Shown piece by piece: positions 13,596 through 23,767 of a stretch of DNA of 64,000 nt. The stretch is from Synechococcus elongatus PCC 11801. GTDB lineage: Bacteria; Cyanobacteriota; Cyanobacteriia; Synechococcales; Synechococcaceae. The notes beneath the pieces are model-generated. The model was given only the letters and a program-made list of their open reading frames with translations, ran no database searches and was not told the DNA's origin. Position 1 is the stretch's first letter. Every line of letters starts with the position of its first letter. Where the stretch lies: positions 310,001 through 374,000 of the forward strand of contig NZ_CP030139.2 in assembly GCF_003846445.2 (NCBI RefSeq). The letters are read 5' to 3'. The translations under genes and the position numbers were made by a program.

Positions 13596-14450
13596 GTGCT
13601 CTCGCAAATTGCAATCTGCATTTGGGTAGAATCAACGGCAATTCTGCAGGATTGCCAGCAAGCATTGGCGGGCGATCGCTACCAATTGCAGATCTGTAGC
13701 TCTGGCGATCTGCTGCTCGACTATGCGCAAACCCATCGCGACCAGATTGACTGTCTGCTGCTAGTCGCTACCAATCCTGGTTGCAAAACCGTCATTCAGC
13801 AACTCTGCTTCCAGGGCATTGTGGTACCGGCGATCGTGGTGGGCGATCGCGATACTGACGATGTCACCGACACCCAGAAAGACTGGGTCTACCACAGCGC
13901 CGAGCTGCATCTCGGTATCCATCAGCTGGAGCAACTGCCCTATCAAGTGGATGCAGCTCTAGCGGAATTTTTGCGCCAAGCCCCCGTCGAGACCATCGCC
14001 GACCAGGTCATGCTGATGGCGGCTACCCATGATCCCGAACTCGCTAGTCATCAGCGCGACCTAGCCCAACGCTTACAAGAACGCTTGGGCTACCTCGGTG
14101 TCTACTACAAACGCGATCCTGATCGCTTTCTGCGCAATTTACCGGCCTACGAGGGACAGAAGTTACTAGAGGCGATGCAGACCAGCTATCGCGAGATTGT
14201 GCTGAGCTATTTCTCCCCCAATAGCAATCTCAATCAGAGTCTTGACAACTTTGTCAACATGGCATTTTTTGCCGATGTTCCGGTTACTCAAGTGGTGGAA
14301 ATTCACATGGAACTCATGGATGAGTTTGCCAAAAAGCTGCGCGTGGAGGGCCGTTCCGAGGATATTTTGCTGGACTATCGACTGACTTTAATTGATGTCA
14401 TCGCTCATCTCTGTGAGATGTATCGGCGCTCTATCCCACGGGAAACCTAA
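13596..14450 (+). CDS. kaiA: Circadian clock protein KaiA
   Basis: Stimulates KaiC autophosphorylation during the subjective day by binding the KaiC C-terminal tail. The product is 284 residues, the full length of the long S. elongatus form. Residues 1 to about 135 form the pseudo-receiver domain, which lacks the phospho-accepting Asp set. The C-terminal four-helix dimer domain (about 180-283) contains the conserved stretches LGYLGVYYKRDPDRFLRNLP and SYFSPNSNLNQSLDNFVNMA. Initiation is at GTG with AAGGAG upstream. Compared with PCC 7942 KaiA as I remember it, the C-terminal domain is almost identical, while the pseudo-receiver differs at many positions (for example around residues 85-98). It has its own promoter region and is followed by the kaiBC promoter region. 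Confidence 0.98.
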   Translation: MLSQIAICIWVESTAILQDCQQALAGDRYQLQICSSGDLLLDYAQTHRDQIDCLLLVATNPGCKTVIQQLCFQGIVVPAIVVGDRDTDDVTDTQKDWVYHSAELHLGIHQLEQLPYQVDAALAEFLRQAPVETIADQVMLMAATHDPELASHQRDLAQRLQERLGYLGVYYKRDPDRFLRNLPAYEGQKLLEAMQTSYREIVLSYFSPNSNLNQSLDNFVNMAFFADVPVTQVVEIHMELMDEFAKKLRVEGRSEDILLDYRLTLIDVIAHLCEMYRRSIPRET

Positions 14451-14539
14451 AAAGGTAAAGGAGGTCTTAAGCCCCGCTCAATTACTCATTCGAGCCTGTT
14501 AGATAGTCTGATTGCTGTTGACCCGTTCTTAATCTGTGC
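14451..14539 (+). promoter_or_regulatory. kaiA-kaiB intergenic region with the kaiBC promoter
   Basis: In S. elongatus kaiBC is transcribed from its own rhythmic promoter just upstream of kaiB. This 89-base gap holds the equivalent region. A perfect anti-SD complement AAAGGAGGT sits at 14457-14465 directly after the kaiA stop, but no start codon follows at usable distance. No strong SD precedes the kaiB ATG itself. No hairpin that could end kaiA is obvious. Confidence 0.6.
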
Positions 14540-14848
14540 ATGAGCCCTCGTAAAACCTACATTCTCAAGCTCTACGTCGCCGGCAATACTCCGAACTCGG
14601 TTCGAGCCCTCAAGACGCTCAAGAACATCCTTGAAGTCGAGTTTCAAGGTGTCTATGCCCTGAAGGTGATCGATGTTTTAAAAAATCCTCAGTTGGCAGA
14701 GGAGGATAAAATTCTAGCGACGCCAACGCTTGCTAAGGTTTTACCGTTGCCGGTGCGTCGGATTATCGGTGATTTATCCGATCGCGAGAAGGTACTGATT
14801 GGTCTTGACTTGCTCTACGGAGACTTGCAAGACACGGATGATTTTTAG
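14540..14848 (+). CDS. kaiB: Circadian clock protein KaiB
   Basis: A metamorphic thioredoxin-like protein of 102 residues that binds phosphorylated KaiC at night, sequesters KaiA and signals through CikA and SasA. It begins [20 protein letters not shown]. The fold-switch positions G88 and D90 are present in LIGLDLLYG. The acidic tail ends DLQDTDDF, and this tail is where it differs slightly from the PCC 7942 sequence I recall (ELQDSDDF). It is followed 51 bases later by kaiC and is clearly in one operon with it. Both genes avoid HIP1 octamers and use many A/T-ending codons. Confidence 0.98.
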
Positions 14849-14899
14849 GGATTTTGAATCCTCCCATCAGTACCACTTGATTGTTCAAGCTCTTATAAA

Positions 14900-16459
14900 A
14901 TGACCCCCGCTGAGATGACTGGTTCCAATAACGGCTCTACGCACCAAGCGGTTGCCAAAATGCGCACGATGATTGAAGGCTTTGACGATATTAGTCATGG
15001 TGGTCTTCCGATTGGGCGATCCACACTTGTCAGTGGGACTTCTGGAACTGGCAAAACCCTCTTCTCAATTCAATTTCTCTACAACGGCATTATTGAATTT
15101 GATGAGCCGGGTGTCTTCGTCACCTTTGAAGAAACGCCACAAGACATTATTAAAAATGCGCGCAGTTTCGGCTGGGATCTCGCCAAGCTTGTGGATGAAG
15201 GAAAATTGTTTATTCTTGATGCTTCCCCAGATCCAGAAGGTCAAGAAGTAGTCGGTGGCTTTGACTTATCAGCCCTGATCGAACGTATTAATTATGCTAT
15301 TCAAAAGTACCGTGCTCGTCGGGTTTCCATTGACTCAGTTACATCCGTTTTTCAGCAATATGATGCTTCTTCAGTCGTTCGCCGAGAATTGTTCCGACTC
15401 GTCGCTCGTCTCAAGCAAATTGGTGCCACGACCTTGATGACTACTGAGCGCTTGGAGGAATACGGCCCGATCGCTCGCTATGGCGTTGAAGAATTTGTCT
15501 CCGATAACGTCGTCATCCTACGCAACGTGTTGGAAGGCGAACGCCGCCGCCGAACCCTCGAAATTCTGAAGCTGCGTGGCACGAGCCACATGAAAGGGGA
15601 GTATCCGTTCACGATTACGGATAACGGCATTAATATCTTCCCGCTCGGGGCAATGCGCCTCACGCAGCGATCTTCGAACGTCCGCGTTTCTTCTGGGGTT
15701 ACGCGACTCGATGAAATGTGCGGTGGCGGCTTCTTCAAAGACTCGATTATTCTTGCGACGGGTGCGACTGGCACTGGCAAAACACTGCTGGTGAGTCGGT
15801 TTGTTGAGAATGCCTGTGCGAACAAAGAGCGAGCCATTCTCTTTGCTTATGAAGAGTCACGGGCACAGCTGCTCCGCAATGCCTATTCTTGGGGCATGGA
15901 CTTCGAAGAAATGGAGCGTCAGGACCTTCTTAAAATTGTCTGTGCCTATCCAGAATCAGCGGGTTTGGAAGACCATTTGCAGATCATTAAGTCGGAGATT
16001 AGCGAATTTAAACCGGCTCGAATTGCGATCGACTCTCTCTCGGCTTTAGCGCGTGGTGTGAGTAATAATGCTTTCCGACAATTTGTGATTGGCGTGACTG
16101 GCTATGCCAAACAGGAAGAGATCACAGGACTCTTCACCAACACCAGCGATCAGTTTATGGGAGCCCACTCGATTACAGACTCCCATATTTCAACCATTAC
16201 TGACACGATTATCTTGCTGCAGTACGTTGAAATCCGCGGCGAAATGTCTCGTGCTATTAACGTCTTTAAGATGCGCGGTTCTTGGCACGACAAAGCGATT
16301 CGTGAATTCATGATCAGCGACAAAGGACCGGATATCAAAGACTCCTTCCGGAATTTCGAGCGGATTATTTCCGGCTCACCAACACGGATCACTGTGGATG
16401 AGAAGAGTGAGCTGTCGCGGATTGTGCGCGGCGTTCAAGAAAAGGGGCCGGAAAGCTAG
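14900..16459 (+). CDS. kaiC: Circadian clock ATPase/autokinase KaiC
   Basis: The central clock protein, 519 residues, a double-RecA hexamer. The CI ring has P-loop GTSGTGKT (46-53) and catalytic EE (77-78), and sets the pace by slow ATP hydrolysis. The CII ring has P-loop GATGTGKT and YEES, and phosphorylates itself at Ser431 and Thr432 (in HISTITDT; numbering counted back from residue 519), with Thr426 nearby. The C-terminal A-loop and tail (about 488-519) that bind KaiA are intact. Substitutions relative to PCC 7942 KaiC as I remember it include several in residues 3-17 and scattered conservative changes such as TTLMTTERLEEYG and EISEFKPAR. The last codons overlap the stop of the convergent gene by four bases. 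Confidence 0.99.
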   Translation: MTPAEMTGSNNGSTHQAVAKMRTMIEGFDDISHGGLPIGRSTLVSGTSGTGKTLFSIQFLYNGIIEFDEPGVFVTFEETPQDIIKNARSFGWDLAKLVDEGKLFILDASPDPEGQEVVGGFDLSALIERINYAIQKYRARRVSIDSVTSVFQQYDASSVVRRELFRLVARLKQIGATTLMTTERLEEYGPIARYGVEEFVSDNVVILRNVLEGERRRRTLEILKLRGTSHMKGEYPFTITDNGINIFPLGAMRLTQRSSNVRVSSGVTRLDEMCGGGFFKDSIILATGATGTGKTLLVSRFVENACANKERAILFAYEESRAQLLRNAYSWGMDFEEMERQDLLKIVCAYPESAGLEDHLQIIKSEISEFKPARIAIDSLSALARGVSNNAFRQFVIGVTGYAKQEEITGLFTNTSDQFMGAHSITDSHISTITDTIILLQYVEIRGEMSRAINVFKMRGSWHDKAIREFMISDKGPDIKDSFRNFERIISGSPTRITVDEKSELSRIVRGVQEKGPES

Positions 16460-17463
16460 TCTGCGGTGGCGATCGCCGTCAGATAGCACGCTTGCAGATC
16501 AGCCGTCAGTCCTAGAACGGAGAACGCGAGCGCTTCGCGATAGAGCCGTTGGGCTGGGTGTTGTAGTGAATTGGCGGCACCAGCTGCGCTAAAGACAGCA
16601 GCTTGGGTACAGCGATGCATCAGGCTAAGGGCTTGCACCCGCAAATCTAGCGCTCGATCTGGCAATCGCTCGGATTGCAGGAGAGTGGCGGCGATCGCCT
16701 GTTCGATCTGCTCCAATCGGGACTGGAGGAGAGCCGCACTGTCCAATGACTGCTTTTCCAGAGTTCGGATTGCAGCCCGCGCAACGCCGCAGGCAAAAGC
16801 CGTTGGACTAAGAATGCCTTGGCGATCGCGATCGTGGATCCATGTGGCAGGCTGAATCGTTACCAAGCGATCGCGGGGCAGCGTAATGCTCAGCTGAGCA
16901 GCGACTGTGCCAGTTGTTCCCATCGCAGCCAGCGCCAAGGGCGAGACTTGCCATTCAGGTGCGCTGGCTGGGATCAAGCAAAAGAGAATTTGGCCGTCGG
17001 GTAAAGGGGCGGCAATCAAAAACTCCTCAAAAAAGCCCCAGCCCGTCAGCCAAGGAAGCTGACCACTCAGGCAGATCTGATCTCCTTGCCATTGAGCTTG
17101 CAAAGGAACGGGCGATCGCCGCAGATGGGAAAAGCCAATTCCAACTTTGGGTTGACCCTGACGCAGACCTTGCAAGCAACGATCGCCGGGACAATATCTG
17201 GCGAGAAGCGCCGCGGCACTTTGGTGCTGGGTTTGCAGAAACGCCAAGGCACCTGAAGCACTGGCGATTGCAGTCTGTGCTTGCCAAACCTGCAGCGGGG
17301 AGAGTGCCGCTTCCCCCGCAATGGTAGGAAGAGACAGCCCCAGCCAACCGCGATCGCCCATTTGCCCAAGCACTGTGGCTAGGACAGCAGGATCTTGATC
17401 GATCGCTTCTGCTTGGGGCTGCACCTCGGCGGTCAGCCAATTTTGCAGGGCTTGCAGTTCCAC
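16456..17463 (-). CDS. Acyl-CoA dehydrogenase-like protein
   Basis: A 335-residue protein with the helical N-terminal segment (GDRGWLGLSLP), the middle beta domain (about 105-190) and the C-terminal helical bundle of acyl-CoA dehydrogenases. The family is usually near 380 residues, so this is a little short. The C-terminal region (AAGAANSLQHPAQRLYREAL) lacks an obvious catalytic Glu at the usual place, so enzymatic activity is doubtful. It is convergent with kaiC and overlaps it by four bases, so read-through would be antisense to kaiC. S. elongatus is not known for beta-oxidation, which makes the role unclear. Confidence 0.75.
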   Translation of the reverse strand: MELQALQNWLTAEVQPQAEAIDQDPAVLATVLGQMGDRGWLGLSLPTIAGEAALSPLQVWQAQTAIASASGALAFLQTQHQSAAALLARYCPGDRCLQGLRQGQPKVGIGFSHLRRSPVPLQAQWQGDQICLSGQLPWLTGWGFFEEFLIAAPLPDGQILFCLIPASAPEWQVSPLALAAMGTTGTVAAQLSITLPRDRLVTIQPATWIHDRDRQGILSPTAFACGVARAAIRTLEKQSLDSAALLQSRLEQIEQAIAATLLQSERLPDRALDLRVQALSLMHRCTQAAVFSAAGAANSLQHPAQRLYREALAFSVLGLTADLQACYLTAIATAD

Positions 17464-18093: not shown

Positions 18094-20565
18094 TTGTCCC
18101 TGCGATCGCCCGTGACGCTCTCTCCGCCCGATAGTCCCAAAGTCCGTCTGCGCGATCGCCGCGATGCCCTGATCTTGCTGGGGTTCTGGTTGCTGTCCTT
18201 AGCGATCGATGGACTCTGGCGCAGCGTTGACCTCGCCCCACCGGCTTGGGATCAAGGCGATCACTTCAGTCGGGCTCTGGCCTTTTGGCAGGCATGGCAA
18301 TCACCTCAGCTTTTGAATGGCGGTTGGTGGACACAGCTATGGCAACTCGCGCCGACCTATCGGGGGCCACTGACCTATCTGCTGACCCTGCCGCTCTTCC
18401 TGCTGTTTGGAGCCAACTGGGAGAGCGCGATCGCTAGCAACGGTCTGTTTAGCGGACTGCTACTGATCAGCACCTACGGCCTGGGGCGACTCTATGCCAA
18501 TCGCACCACGGGTTTGGTGGCGGCGGGTCTGAGTCTGGCGGCACCGCTGGCGATCATTCAGCGGGTCGATTACCTGATCGACTACAGCCTGACGGCAGTG
18601 CTGACGCTGACTTGGCTCTGCCTATCGCTCTGGAAGTTTGCGAGGAGCCCCAAGCGACGACTGGGGGCAGCAGCGGCCAGTGGGGTCGCGATCGCGGCGG
18701 TCTTTCTGACCCGTCCGACCGGACTGATCTTTCTGTGGTTGCCGCTGTTGTGGCTGGCGATCGCGGCAGTGGGCCAACTCTTCCAGCAACGCCGCTGGCA
18801 ACCCTTGGCTGAATTGCTGGTGGCAGGTGGCATTGCAGGGCTGTTGTCTTGGCCTTGGTTTAGCACCAACTGGCTGACGATTCTGTCCTCGATCGCCAAT
18901 GCTCGCGACTGGGGGGTGAAGTATCAGGAGGGTTTGGAGGCCAATACTCTCGCAGGCTGGCTCTACTACCCCGAAAATCTGCCGGAGATGCTGTCGCCCT
19001 GGCTGTTCGGTGTGTTGGTCGTCAGTAGTGCCATTGCTGCTGTTTGGCTTTGGCGGCGCGGTGAATCGGGACCCGGCTCGCGCGATCGCTGGCTCTGGCT
19101 GGCGGGCTTTCTCTTTGGTGCATATCTGATCTGTGTCCTGGGCAGCACCAAAGTCACACGTTTCTTCCTGCCGTTGCTGCCCAGCTTGATCGTGCCCTTA
19201 GTTGCCCTACCGACGGTTCTGCCCCGACGCTGGCAGCAGGCACTGTGGACGGGGGTGGCGGCGATCGCGATCGCAGTAGGATTACAGACCATTTTCCCAG
19301 GGCCGATCCGAGCAGCTTGGCCGACCCGCTTTCCCCAAACGCAGGCTTGGCCGTTGGCTGGGATCATCGAGCGCATTCGCGAGACACAACCGCAGCTGCA
19401 ATCAACCCTAGCCGTCTTGACGGATGCCGAAGCTCTGAATGCCTTCAACCTCAACGCCGAGGGGCAAAAGCAGGACTTCAGCGTTTTTGCGCGGCAAACC
19501 CTAGCGCCGGAAGAGAACTGGCAGGCAGACTTGCAAGCGTTTGACTGGTTCCTCAGCAAAACCGGCGATCAGGGGGTGATGGCGGGCAAGACGGAAGAAC
19601 GGCTGGTGGAAGCGATCGCGCGATCGCCTGAATTTCAGTCCGTGGGACAGTGGCCACTTCCAGATGGAAGTCAAGCGCAACTCTGGCAACGGCGAGCCCT
19701 GACCCTCTCGGCCAAACCGAGCGCCTGCCCCAAGCAGCCACTGGAACTAGCAGTCATTGCACCGCCTCAAGCCAAGGCCGGTCAGCCGTTTCAGATCACT
19801 TATCGGCTGCGCGGGTCGATCGCACAACTGCGCAACAGCCTGTTATTGATCACTTGGCAGAACGATCGCGATCGGCTCTGGGTGCAGGATCACCAACCGG
19901 GCCTGGGCTACCTTAAAGCCGGTGCGGGCTGCATTGAACTGGAAGAACGCCTGACCACCCAAGCCCCCGACTCGCTCCCAGAGGGTTCCTATCAGTTGCA
20001 GGTTCAACGTCTGGATCGCGAGACCGGCGATCGCCAAATCCTGCCGACGGCTTCGACGGTCATTCAACTGGGGACGATCCTGGCGCCGACCAGTCCGACG
20101 GCCCTTGATCCGGTCAGTCGCTTGCATCAGTTGGGGACACTCCTAGAGACTGGTCAGGTTGATCCGCTCTTTGCTGACGTGAGTCTTCTCAATCAGGCTG
20201 ACCCTGAGCAGCACTATCTTGATCAGGCGATCGCCAGTCTCCAAGCGCGGTTAGAGGATGAGCCGAACCAGTTGGACTGGCTCTATCCCCTCACCCTCAG
20301 CTATGTGCTGGAGCGGCAAGCCCCCCAAGCGGAGGCTGTGCTGCAACGAGTCGTGGCGGTCAACCCTGACAATGCGTGGAACTGGACATACCTCGGGTTT
20401 GTGCAGCTCTATCAGTTCCAAGGCGCTAAGGCGCGACAGTCTTTGCAAGAAGCAGCGATGCGTCAGCCCGAAGTGCCGATTCTGCCGACTTTGCAAGCGG
20501 TGGCTGCGGTGCAGTCTGGACAGTGGGGCGAAGCGATCGCCCGTTTACGGGGAGAGATGAACTAA
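18094..20565 (+). CDS. Polytopic glycosyltransferase (GT39/ArnT-like) with C-terminal TPR domain
   Basis: An 823-residue membrane protein. The first periplasmic loop holds PPAWDQGDHFSRAL, placed like the catalytic acidic motif of GT39/GT83 enzymes that use polyprenyl-phosphate sugars. About ten hydrophobic helices run to near residue 420. A soluble beta-rich part follows, and the last 130 residues contain TPR units (NPDNAWNWTYLGFVQLYQFQ). The start is TTG at 18094; GTG at 18112 is an alternative. It is immediately followed by the MT-GT2 fusion and the YbhN-like gene, forming a cassette. Transfer of a lipid-linked sugar to a protein or lipid at the outer face of the membrane is inferred from the family. 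Confidence 0.82.
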   Translation: MSLRSPVTLSPPDSPKVRLRDRRDALILLGFWLLSLAIDGLWRSVDLAPPAWDQGDHFSRALAFWQAWQSPQLLNGGWWTQLWQLAPTYRGPLTYLLTLPLFLLFGANWESAIASNGLFSGLLLISTYGLGRLYANRTTGLVAAGLSLAAPLAIIQRVDYLIDYSLTAVLTLTWLCLSLWKFARSPKRRLGAAAASGVAIAAVFLTRPTGLIFLWLPLLWLAIAAVGQLFQQRRWQPLAELLVAGGIAGLLSWPWFSTNWLTILSSIANARDWGVKYQEGLEANTLAGWLYYPENLPEMLSPWLFGVLVVSSAIAAVWLWRRGESGPGSRDRWLWLAGFLFGAYLICVLGSTKVTRFFLPLLPSLIVPLVALPTVLPRRWQQALWTGVAAIAIAVGLQTIFPGPIRAAWPTRFPQTQAWPLAGIIERIRETQPQLQSTLAVLTDAEALNAFNLNAEGQKQDFSVFARQTLAPEENWQADLQAFDWFLSKTGDQGVMAGKTEERLVEAIARSPEFQSVGQWPLPDGSQAQLWQRRALTLSAKPSACPKQPLELAVIAPPQAKAGQPFQITYRLRGSIAQLRNSLLLITWQNDRDRLWVQDHQPGLGYLKAGAGCIELEERLTTQAPDSLPEGSYQLQVQRLDRETGDRQILPTASTVIQLGTILAPTSPTALDPVSRLHQLGTLLETGQVDPLFADVSLLNQADPEQHYLDQAIASLQARLEDEPNQLDWLYPLTLSYVLERQAPQAEAVLQRVVAVNPDNAWNWTYLGFVQLYQFQGAKARQSLQEAAMRQPEVPILPTLQAVAAVQSGQWGEAIARLRGEMN

Positions 20566-20568
20566 GTG

Positions 20569-21999
20569 ATGAATGACCATACGGCTGCGATCGCTGCTCA
20601 TTTTGATCAATTGGCACCGGATCTCGATCGCTGGCGGCGACGCAACCGCACTTACTACCGCGATCTGGAAAAGCTGCATCGCTTTTGGATACCAGCAGGC
20701 TCACGGGTGCTGCAGATTGGCTCCGGTTTAGGAGATCTCCTCGCGACCGTTGAACCGTCCTTCGGCGTCGGGATTGATGTCTCGCCGCAGGTGGTGGCGA
20801 TCGCCCAGCAACGCCATCCACAGTTTCAGTTTCATTGCTTGGCTGCCGAAGAGTTGACACCCGAGGCGATCGGTGATCCGAAACCGTTCGACGTGATCAT
20901 CCTGACGGGCGTCCTCAGCTACCTGACAGATATTCAAGTGGTGATGGAGCGACTGCAAGCTTTTTGTCATCCTCGTACGCGGCTGATTCTCGGCTTCCAT
21001 AACTTTCTCTGGCAGCCCCTGCTGACGCTGGCTGAGAAAGCGGGGCAGCGATCGCCCCAACCGCCCGAGAGCTGGCTGGGTATGCAGGATATTCTCAACC
21101 TGCTGACGCTGGCAGGCTATGAGCCGATCAAACAGGGTCGGCGTTTCTTAGTGCCACGACAGATTCCTTTGCTAACGGGCTGGATCAACCGTTGGATTAG
21201 TCCGCTGCCGGTGATCGAGCATCTGGCACTGACCAACTATGTCATTGCGCGTCCGATTGCTCGACCCCAAGCTCAGCCCAGTGTCTCGGTGATTGTTCCG
21301 GCTCGCAATGAAGCGGGCAATATTGCCGCAGCTGTTGAGCGCTTGCCTGAACTGGGTGCAGAAACTGAGTTGATCTTTGTGGAAGGCCACTCCCGTGATC
21401 AGACTTGGGAGACGATCGAGCAGACTGTGGCTGAGTATCAGGGGCCGCTGAAGCTGCTAGCCTGCCGCCAAACCGGCAAGGGTAAAGCCGATGCTGTGCG
21501 GTTGGGCTTTGATAAGGCCAGTGGCGACATTCTGATGATTCTTGATGCGGATTTGACCGTGCAGCCCGAGGATCTGGGGCACTTCTACCGTGCGATCGCC
21601 AGTGGACGGGGTGAATTCATCAACGGTTCGCGGCTGGTCTATCCGCGATCGCGGCTGGCAATGCCGGGGCTGAATACTTTTGCTAATCGGACTTTCGCCC
21701 TAATCTTTTCATTCCTGCTAGGACAACCGCTCAAGGACACCCTTTGCGGCACTAAGGTGCTCTGGAAAACCGACTACGATCGCGTGGCGGCAGGACGGAA
21801 ATACTTTGGGGATTTTGATCCCTTTGGCGACTTTGATCTGCTGTTTGGTGCCGCCAAACTCGGCCTCAAAATTGTCGAAGTGCCAGTGCGTTATCAGGAA
21901 CGCAGCTACGGCAGTTCCAACATTGCCCACGTCCGCGAAGGGCTGATTCTGGCACGGATGTGTCTTTACGCTGCTGGCAAACTGAAGTTCCCGTACTAA
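20569..21999 (+). CDS. Fusion of SAM-dependent methyltransferase and GT2 polyprenyl-phosphate glycosyltransferase
   Basis: Two enzymes in one 476-residue chain. Residues about 1-215 are a class I methyltransferase with motif I VLQIGSGLGDLLA and post-motif VGIDVSPQVV. Residues about 240-476 are a GT2 domain with VSVIVPARNEAGNI, the GKGKADAVR stretch, the DxD-type LDADLTVQPEDL and DTLCGTKVLWK, resembling dolichol-phosphate-mannose synthases. Such enzymes make the polyprenyl-P-sugar donors used by GT39 enzymes such as the gene just upstream. The preceding stop (20563-20565) abuts a GTG (20566) and ATG (20569); GGAGA before them fits either start. Substrates are unknown. Confidence 0.85.
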   Translation: MNDHTAAIAAHFDQLAPDLDRWRRRNRTYYRDLEKLHRFWIPAGSRVLQIGSGLGDLLATVEPSFGVGIDVSPQVVAIAQQRHPQFQFHCLAAEELTPEAIGDPKPFDVIILTGVLSYLTDIQVVMERLQAFCHPRTRLILGFHNFLWQPLLTLAEKAGQRSPQPPESWLGMQDILNLLTLAGYEPIKQGRRFLVPRQIPLLTGWINRWISPLPVIEHLALTNYVIARPIARPQAQPSVSVIVPARNEAGNIAAAVERLPELGAETELIFVEGHSRDQTWETIEQTVAEYQGPLKLLACRQTGKGKADAVRLGFDKASGDILMILDADLTVQPEDLGHFYRAIASGRGEFINGSRLVYPRSRLAMPGLNTFANRTFALIFSFLLGQPLKDTLCGTKVLWKTDYDRVAAGRKYFGDFDPFGDFDLLFGAAKLGLKIVEVPVRYQERSYGSSNIAHVREGLILARMCLYAAGKLKFPY

Positions 22000-22005
22000 C
22001 GCTCC

Positions 22006-23022
22006 TTGACTCCTGCGACCCCACCGCCCTCGACGATAACTAGCCAGCGCTGGATTGTACCGCTGCTGTTGGTTACAGTGCTGCTCAATCTGGGGCTGAT
22101 ACTCTGGGGCGGTTGGCAGACGATTTGGCAACAGCTCCGCCAGATCCCGTTCGCCTTTTATCCGCTCAGTGCACTGATCCTCTGTTGTGGCTATGGCATC
22201 GGTTTTTGGCGCTGGCATACCTACCTGCAGGTGCTCGATCACTGGTTACCCATCCGCCCCAGCCTACGGATTTTTTTGGGCAGTTTGGCGCTGACTGCCT
22301 CACCGGGGCGAGCAGGGGAATCGATCAAATCGCTCTGGTTGCGGCAGCAATTCGGCGTTTCAGCGGCGCGATCGCTGGCGGGTCTGGTCTGTGAACGGCT
22401 CTGCGATCTGCTGGCGGCTCTGCTGATTGTGGGGCTGGGGCTCTCAGCCCGACTCGGGGCAGGCTTTTGGTGGGCTTGCTTGGGGCTCGCGATCGCCCTA
22501 TTTCTAATCCTCGGCCAGCCTCAACGTCTGCAAGCGTGGGCTGAACGCTTTGGTGGGCGTTCGCGGCGGCGTAAAGGCTTAGAGCGCTTGGCGCATCTCC
22601 TGTTCAGTGCCCGTCGCTTGCTACAGCCGCGTTACTTAGCCGGTGGACTGCTTGTCTCGGTCGCCATTTGGTCACTCGAAGGGGTAGTGCTCTACGGCTG
22701 TTTTCAGGTGTTGCAAGCGGAAACGATCAATCTGCCGACGGCCATCCTGATTCGGGCAGCCATGGGTTTGGGCGGAGTGTTGACGTTGCTGCCGGGCGGC
22801 TTGGGCGGTGCGGAAGCTGCTTCGATCTCCTTGGCACTCCTCTACGGGGCCGATCGCGATCAAGCGATCGCCGCGACCGTGCTAATACGCCTGCTGACTC
22901 TCTGGTTCCCGATCGCGATCGGCTGGGTTGCCTTGCATCGCCAAAGTCGCACCCTTAAATCTCTCGCGTTGTCTCCTCTCCCTGAACCCGATGCTGACCA
23001 GTCGCCAAAATCCCCTCGCTAA
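22006..23022 (+). CDS. YbhN/AglD-type integral membrane protein (lysylphosphatidylglycerol synthase TM region family)
   Basis: A 338-residue protein with seven or eight hydrophobic segments. Family-like motifs include LTASPGRAGESIKSLWLR, LVCERLCDLLAALL and LLPGGLGGAEAASISLALL. Members are suspected lipid or glycolipid flippases or enzyme helpers, but none is firmly assigned. The likely start is TTG at 22006, six bases after the stop of the MT-GT2 fusion, so it is translationally linked to it. It completes a three-gene cassette with GT39 and GT2 partners. Its 3' end overlaps the next gene by 32 bases. Confidence 0.8.
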   Translation: MTPATPPPSTITSQRWIVPLLLVTVLLNLGLILWGGWQTIWQQLRQIPFAFYPLSALILCCGYGIGFWRWHTYLQVLDHWLPIRPSLRIFLGSLALTASPGRAGESIKSLWLRQQFGVSAARSLAGLVCERLCDLLAALLIVGLGLSARLGAGFWWACLGLAIALFLILGQPQRLQAWAERFGGRSRRRKGLERLAHLLFSARRLLQPRYLAGGLLVSVAIWSLEGVVLYGCFQVLQAETINLPTAILIRAAMGLGGVLTLLPGGLGGAEAASISLALLYGADRDQAIAATVLIRLLTLWFPIAIGWVALHRQSRTLKSLALSPLPEPDADQSPKSPR

Positions 23023-23767
23023 ACAAATTCGCCAACTGCATCAGGCTAAAGGTCGCCGCCAGCAGCAAGCCTTTTTGCTGGAGGGAACCCACCTCTTACA
23101 GGAGGCGATCGCAACCGGCTGGCCACTCCTGCAAGTCTGTGCGACCCCCGAGTGGCAAGACCAGCATCCGCAGCTCTGGCAGCAGGCAACGCAAGTGGCA
23201 CCGGAGCAAACCGTCAGCGCAGATTTGCTGGCGTATCTTTGCACCACGGTTAGTCCGGATGGAGTGGTGGCGATCGCGGCACGACAACCGCTCCGGAAAC
23301 CTGATTCACGCGCTTCGTTGCTAGTTGCTGTCGAAACTCTGCAAGACCCAGGCAATCTCGGCACGATTATTCGCACGGCAGCAGCAGCAGGGGCAGAAGG
23401 CCTCTGGCTTAGTGCCGATTGCGTCGACCCTGACCATCCGAAAGTGCTGCGAGCTTCTGCCGGTCAATGGTTCCGGCTACCAATGGCGATCGCCCCCGAT
23501 CTCGGGCAAACCCTGCGATCGTTGCAGCAACAGGGCCACCAGATTGTTGCGACCTTGCCGCGTACCGAAACGACGCTGTGGCAAGCGAACTTTCGGCAAC
23601 CAACGGTGCTGCTCTTGGGAAATGAAGGCGCAGGGCTAAGTGCCAACCTGGCGGCGATCGCGGATACCGCTGTCACAATTCCCCAAGCTGCGGGCGTGGA
23701 ATCGCTGAATGTGGCGATCGCGGCAGCTCTACTGCTCTACGAAGCCCGCCGCCAGCGACAAAGCTAG
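22991..23767 (+). CDS. SpoU/TrmH-family RNA 2'-O-methyltransferase
   Basis: The start at 22991 gives MLTSRQNPLAKQIRQLHQAK, the usual opening of TrmH/RlmB-like enzymes, and 258 residues. A small N-terminal substrate-binding domain precedes the SPOUT knot domain, which has the three family motifs: VETLQDPGNLGTIIRTAAAA, LLLGNEGAGL and ESLNVAIAAALLLYEA. It methylates a ribose in rRNA or tRNA; the exact site cannot be read off. The start lies within the last 32 bases of the YbhN-like gene, so coupling is likely although function is unrelated. Confidence 0.9.
   Translation: MLTSRQNPLAKQIRQLHQAKGRRQQQAFLLEGTHLLQEAIATGWPLLQVCATPEWQDQHPQLWQQATQVAPEQTVSADLLAYLCTTVSPDGVVAIAARQPLRKPDSRASLLVAVETLQDPGNLGTIIRTAAAAGAEGLWLSADCVDPDHPKVLRASAGQWFRLPMAIAPDLGQTLRSLQQQGHQIVATLPRTETTLWQANFRQPTVLLLGNEGAGLSANLAAIADTAVTIPQAAGVESLNVAIAAALLLYEARRQRQS

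Follow-up and report, generated by a model that had tools for sequence, protein, structure and literature searches.

The window analysed here is a 64,000-nucleotide stretch of the Synechococcus elongatus PCC 11801 genome (contig NZ_CP030139.2, positions 310,001 to 374,000 of the forward strand), in which three genes, denoted A, B and C, are encoded in a row. Gene A (18094-20565, + strand) starts with TTG, codes for a protein of 823 amino acids (aa) and terminates with a TAA codon (20563-20565) that directly abuts the GTG start of gene B (20566-21999, + strand, 477 aa); 6 bases separate the stop of B from the TTG start of gene C (22006-23022, + strand, 338 aa). These junctions and coordinates confirm the three abutting, co-directional genes reported in the initial annotation of the locus, where they were taken for a glycosylation cassette. 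The true start of B is probably the alternative ATG at 20569, because the relative of this protein in genome G001 begins with MNDHT.

Gene B encodes a fusion of a class I S-adenosylmethionine (SAM) methyltransferase (approximately aa 29-200) with a GT2 glycosyltransferase (approximately aa 239-475) and contains no transmembrane segment. Both domains are recognized in Pfam (Methyltransf_12, 4e-13; GT2, 3e-20), and the best GT2 match in NCBIfam, AglJ, is far below the cut-off. In a PDB search with a profile of 16 relatives, the front half of B retrieved methyltransferases (3ccf, 6e-13), and the GT2 domain was nearest to the dolichyl-phosphate-mannose synthase PfDPMS (5mlz, 3.5e-20), followed by ArnC and the Synechocystis GtrB, in agreement with the earlier assignment of this domain to the polyprenyl-phosphate-sugar synthase type. 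Residue conservation was counted over 98 relatives from Cyanobacteria, Chloroflexota, Bacteroidota, Acidobacteriota and other groups. All 98 retain Asp327 and Asp329 of the DxD motif, Arg356, Asn370 and Asn374, and the DxxCGxK motif (391-397) is invariant or nearly so; in the methyltransferase domain, the SAM glycines G52 (98/98), G54 (94/98) and G56 (98/98) are conserved, as is the acidic residue after strand 2 (D/E71, 98/98). Arg356 aligns with Arg117 of PfDPMS, which binds lipid phosphate (PMC5526996). The literature search detected neither a methyltransferase-GT2 polyprenyl enzyme nor a described function for the B family, which is strongly conserved and is represented at no fewer than 583 loci in many phyla.

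The product of gene A combines membrane helices (approximately aa 15-400), a periplasmic alpha/beta and beta-rich region (approximately 420-660) and a TPR tail (approximately 673-822). Profile comparisons identify it as an ArnT/PMT-type GT-C membrane glycosyltransferase, with the PMT_2 and TPR assignments secure for the family only. The window protein itself matches PMT_2 (PF13231) at 19.7 bits (E=1e-3), below the gathering cut-off of 26.1, and TPR at E=6e-5, likewise below the Pfam cut-off; its relatives from genomes G026 (32.1 bits) and G125 (28.3 bits) pass the PMT_2 cut-off, and this domain is matched by 25 of the 29 family members. A profile built from 3 A sequences gave no useful PDB match; 29 sequences were needed, and the resulting profile finds ArnT (5ezm) at 1.6e-8 as the best PDB match. 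Furthermore, hhalign aligns the A family (98.8%, E=1e-16) with the ArnT-like PMT1 family, which neighbours it in other genomes, and the best PDB match of the PMT1 profile is again ArnT, at 1.6e-22. The original GT39 label thus stands in so far as PMT_2 is recovered in most relatives of A, and fails in that the window protein falls below the cut-off and the nearest solved structure, ArnT, belongs to GT83.

The putative catalytic residue of A is Asp53 (codon 18250-18252, + strand), which follows the first membrane helix, is invariant in all 29 relatives, aligns with the conserved Asp of the PMT1 proteins and occupies the same position, after the first transmembrane helix, as the catalytic Asp of GT-C enzymes (PMC11127046). 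Across the same relatives, Trp52-Asp53, Trp255, Asn259, Arg356, Pro363 and Asn449 are invariant, and residue 163 is Asp or Glu in all. The AlphaFold2 (AF2) model of A (overall pLDDT 69.5) consists of helices to approximately residue 400, a mixed or beta-rich part to approximately 660 and a TPR-like tail with a pLDDT of about 90, which upholds the tail noted originally despite the weak Pfam match of the window protein. The membrane part is of low confidence, and Foldseek matched only the TPR part, to TPR structures such as MamA.

The protein encoded by gene C belongs to the LPG_synthase_TM family (PF03706; 1.1e-41, 143.8 bits against a cut-off of 33.4). Its AF2 model (pLDDT 79) matches, in Foldseek at E<=0.001, MprF alone (TM-score 0.53-0.60), and a sequence search against the PDB returned no match. 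The recognition of C as a YbhN-type membrane protein is borne out by the family assignment and the fold. C is the sole PF03706 protein in the S. elongatus genomes G000 and G001, and its family and predicted fold make it a putative lipid-sugar flippase or scramblase of the MprF/YbhN type.

The same gene order, A-B-C, is found in genome G001, where the identity to the window proteins is 95% for B, 89% for A and 86% for C. That the trio is confined to S. elongatus was considered and rejected, the same genes being linked in other genera. Among 151 Cyanobiaceae genomes, B is present in 23, A in 23 and both in 19 (Fisher p=1e-16), 16 of these 19 having A no more than 5 kb from B, and C is present in 21 of the 23 B-bearing genomes and lies within 2 kb of B in all 21 (p=3e-18), both p values ignoring kinship. 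The initial annotation had staked the cassette beforehand on the three genes being neighbours elsewhere, and in these genera they are. Relatives of C at E<=1e-10 occur in 27 of the 151 genomes. In the other genera, A and B often overlap by 4 bases.

The cassette comprises three genes in the window and in G001; in Cyanobiaceae, a second ArnT-like gene, PMT1, is usually joined to it. The order PMT1-A-B-C is found in Synechococcus UW140, HJ21-Hayes, BO 8801, Cyanobium E1_MAG and Aljojuca 7A6; in genomes G026 and G344, the order is PMT1-B-C-A, after which come gmd and fcl (GDP-fucose synthesis), and a TuaG/WcaA-like glycosyltransferase is also encoded near the cassette in G344. The S. elongatus relative of PMT1 (L158:8660-10561) is far away from the cassette, beside a gene resembling that for sucrose-phosphate synthase. 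The position of B was taken from a tblastn match in some high-GC loci; in those of the Cyanobium type (L070:9866-11497; L071, L074, L075), a long antisense open reading frame (ORF) runs across B, so that longest-ORF gene calling misses it.

In the phylogenetic tree of B, all 17 linked sequences fall in one clade (SH-aLRT 99), so that the linkage probably arose once, before the split between S. elongatus and Cyanobiaceae, and was followed by many losses. The weight of the linkage evidence is in the retention over that span, including the re-ordering without separation in G026 and G344. Chance neighbourhood was rejected on the Cyanobiaceae co-occurrence and distance counts, the B tree and the counts of GT-C neighbours given next.

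Beyond S. elongatus and Cyanobiaceae, A and B are not linked; several Leptolyngbyaceae-like genomes carry the two genes on different contigs. Of 96 B loci, 24 have a same-strand ArnT/PMT-type gene (from three subfamilies) within 3 kb of B, whereas none of 295 large ORFs farther away is of this type; the comparison is descriptive because the neighbour profiles were seeded from some of the same neighbours. Chamaesiphon, Anabaena and Pseudanabaena have PMT1-B only. Given that its GT-C neighbours vary, B looks like a donor-making enzyme that is coupled to different GT-C enzymes in different lineages. The expectation that B is specific to the trio is therefore not sustained: it represents a multi-phylum family with varying GT-C neighbours, and A and B occur independently across Cyanobacteria at large.

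Several individual loci show other arrangements. In genome G007 (L137:2037-6265), A lies next to, and is oriented divergently from, a PMT1 relative with no B alongside, so these two GT-C genes can travel together alone. A comparable set outside Cyanobacteria is present on a contig assigned to Myxococcota (L080:490-5334), where the genes for a PMT_2 protein, for B and for an A-like GT-C enzyme that lacks the TPR tail follow one another. In Anaerolinea (L107:8898-11307), a C-type protein is encoded directly 3' of B, apparently an independent B-C pairing in Chloroflexota.

From the families, key residues, gene linkage and co-inheritance observed for A, B and C, we propose that these proteins, with reasonable likelihood, constitute a three-component transmembrane glycosylation system that includes a lipid-sugar synthase, a flippase and a GT-C enzyme. 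In known systems of this kind, a polyprenyl-phosphate-sugar synthase works together with a flippase and a GT-C enzyme (PMC11127046; PMC8035078), and by analogy B would load, C would flip and A would transfer. For C, a precedent is MprF, a promiscuous scramblase of many lipids (PMC11980842); the YbhN-type GpgF, a putative flippase, is encoded in a glycolipid operon (PMC12713373). The donor, the methyl acceptor, the transport step and the final acceptor we infer as follows. In the cytoplasm, B would use a nucleotide donor to load a sugar onto polyprenyl phosphate, and the SAM-dependent methyltransferase fused to it probably adds a methyl group to this sugar or to the lipid-sugar, most likely on the sugar, at the nucleotide or the lipid stage. 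C may then let the polyprenyl-phosphate sugar cross the inner membrane, and A, via the conserved first-loop Asp53, would move the sugar from the lipid to a periplasmic acceptor, with its beta-rich/TPR region possibly binding the acceptor or a partner. The candidate acceptors are O-antigen or another surface glycan, lipid A/lipopolysaccharide (LPS), or protein; in Cyanobiaceae, the adjoining second ArnT-like GT-C enzyme would allow this donor to serve a second acceptor. It has been reported that a cyanobacterial LPS contains an O-methyl hexose (PMC4515613), and the O-antigen of S. elongatus is thought to be made by the Wzm/Wzt route (PMC4390846), which would leave periplasmic side-chain addition to a system like A-B-C. 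We put forward tentatively, as possible, the more specific version in which B is a two-step enzyme making a methylated polyprenyl-phosphate sugar and the MprF-type scramblase is its dedicated transporter.

Several points weigh against the three-component system. The literature search found no MprF/YbhN protein shown to flip a polyprenyl-phosphate sugar. The GT2 of B is DPMS-like, yet B is not a bona fide DPMS, since Arg131 and Ser135 of PfDPMS, which are conserved in bona fide DPMS (PMC5526996), are replaced by Asn370 and Asn374. Because the membrane part is modelled with low confidence, the GT-C fold of A rests on sequence profiles. A canonical lipid-sugar synthase of this genome is a separate GT2-GtrA fusion (368 aa, L160:2695-3801, with a C-terminal GtrA domain and the motif DGDLQHPPE) that is encoded approximately 1.5 Mb away in contig coordinates and could feed A. 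Finally, many B genes have no recognizable GT-C gene beside them, and among 39 diverse cyanobacteria, B is present in 16, A in 23 and both in 9, compared with the 9.4 expected; A therefore does not need B in general, and there is no support for the two being generally coupled in function throughout Cyanobacteria, their co-occurrence being at chance level.

A sub-case of the three-component system is a pathway dedicated to glycosylating proteins, such as pilin or proteins that are secreted, in which A would be a PMT-type O-glycosyltransferase and the TPR tail would dock the protein. The PMT-like domain and the confidently modelled TPR tail of A are consistent with this role, and pilin glycosylation is known in cyanobacteria (PMC12288463). 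However, PilA in S. elongatus is modified by a different glycosyltransferase, of the Ogt type (PMC12288463; PMC9260433), so that protein glycosylation by A gains no special support; moreover, among solved structures A is closest to ArnT, a lipid A modifier, rather than to PMT, and the gmd/fcl genes beside the cassette in G026 and G344, together with the TuaG/WcaA-like gene in G344, hint at surface glycans. We therefore regard a dedicated protein glycosylation pathway as rather doubtful.

Departing further from the proposed scheme, B might glycosylate and/or methylate a phospholipid or glycolipid that C moves to the outer leaflet, with A acting separately on another donor, a lipid-modification pathway that can be likened to the gpgSDF system of Pseudomonas aeruginosa, where the genes for a glycolipid synthase and a deacetylase precede that for the YbhN-type GpgF. 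B and C are indeed the tightest pair (21/21 within 2 kb), three genomes with B and C (G335, G446, G480) have no A match at E<=1e-40, A can stand alone, and the characterized MprF-domain proteins act on phospholipid-type lipids (PMC11980842; PMC12713373). Nevertheless, the GT2 of B is closest to polyprenyl-phosphate-sugar synthases, and GpgS is a GT4 enzyme whereas B is a GT2. In addition, at loci from several lineages (L055, L065, L069, L072, L042, L045) B is accompanied by an ArnT/PMT-like GT-C gene but by neither C nor A, and GT-C enzymes of this kind are known to use polyprenyl-phosphate sugars. Modification of a membrane lipid by B and C hence appears unlikely to us. It is more improbable still that C serves membrane homeostasis as a general phospholipid scramblase, a role proposed for Escherichia coli YbhN, and adjoins B only incidentally: as the sole LPG_synthase_TM protein of S. 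elongatus it could be a housekeeping copy, and MprF scrambles many lipids (PMC11980842), but most Cyanobiaceae have no relative of C, and the strong ones are nearly always beside B (21 within 2 kb).

The surroundings of the cassette in the window include a divergent glutathione peroxidase gene 92 bases from A and, upstream, kaiABC-like genes at 13596-16459 (284, 102 and 519 aa); between the latter and the cassette there are only an acyl-CoA-dehydrogenase-like ORF and the glutathione peroxidase gene, both on the other strand. In genome G001 (L031:1093-4756), several small ORFs that are absent from the window, one of them resembling a PIN-type toxin, sit between the glutathione peroxidase gene and A. 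Downstream, a co-directional gene for an RlmB/TrmH-type RNA methyltransferase (22928-23767, + strand) overlaps the 3' end of C; we judge it to be outside the pathway because it is absent beside the cassette in Cyanobiaceae. Between positions 17450 and 26300, no promoter-like sites were found compared with 2.3 expected, terminators showed no excess (10 compared with 9.1 expected), and an Rfam search of the window returned no match.

At the level of the genes, the original observation is right, and stronger than first stated; the interpretation attached to it is partly supported. Of the steps in three-component glycosylation, the one performed by the flippase is the least certain, with direct proof lacking for the candidates discussed previously (PMC11127046). 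With a compact operon in a transformable model cyanobacterium and a single-copy C co-inherited with B, it becomes testable whether a scramblase fold carries polyprenyl-phosphate sugars, and the methyltransferase fused to B could account for the entry of methylated sugars into cell-surface glycans. If a methylated donor and a dedicated MprF-type transporter were indeed involved, both the donor chemistry and the flippase class would be new to three-component glycosylation, spread over many phyla via the B family.

Among the characterized systems, linked genes for a synthase, a flippase and a GT-C enzyme are likewise found in the GtrA/GtrB/Gtr* system of O-antigen glucosylation and in the polyprenyl-phosphoribose system of Citrobacter youngae, the GT-C enzyme of which has an extra periplasmic carbohydrate-binding domain comparable with the extra periplasmic region of A (PMC11127046; PMC8035078). 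Unlike in these systems, the GT2 encoded here has no transmembrane segments and is fused to a methyltransferase, the GT-C enzyme carries a TPR tail, and the flippase candidate is of the MprF/YbhN type, which differs from the GtrA-, Wzx-, SMR- or MATE-type flippases already assigned to bacterial three-component systems (PMC11127046; PMC8035078). The same plan underlies the AglD/AglR/AglS pathway, which adds the terminal mannose to the N-glycan of Haloferax through a cytoplasmic lipid-phosphate-mannose, a protein for crossing the membrane and an outer-face transferase (PMC3871713); COG0392 is named AglD2/YbhN (PMC12713373). The Agl pathway differs in being archaeal and dolichol-based, with an N-linked glycan as the acceptor. 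To our knowledge, no methyltransferase is fused to the GT2 in AglD/AglR/AglS.

As to the individual components, the GT2 of B keeps the DxD motif and the Arg117 equivalent of PfDPMS (5mlz) and differs by Asn370/Asn374, the absence of transmembrane domains and the N-terminal methyltransferase. A shares the conserved Asp of the first periplasmic loop with ArnT (GT83; 5ezm/5f15), but has mostly Asp-Gln in place of Asp-Glu in this loop, as well as long periplasmic beta and TPR regions beyond the ArnT-matching part. C has the fold and the Pfam family in common with the MprF flippase domain, YbhN and GpgF, but contains no synthase domain, and its partners are a GT2 and a GT-C enzyme rather than a lipid synthase. 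The plan of the system is known from other bacteria, and the methyltransferase-fused synthase together with the MprF-type flippase candidate look like a new combination of parts.

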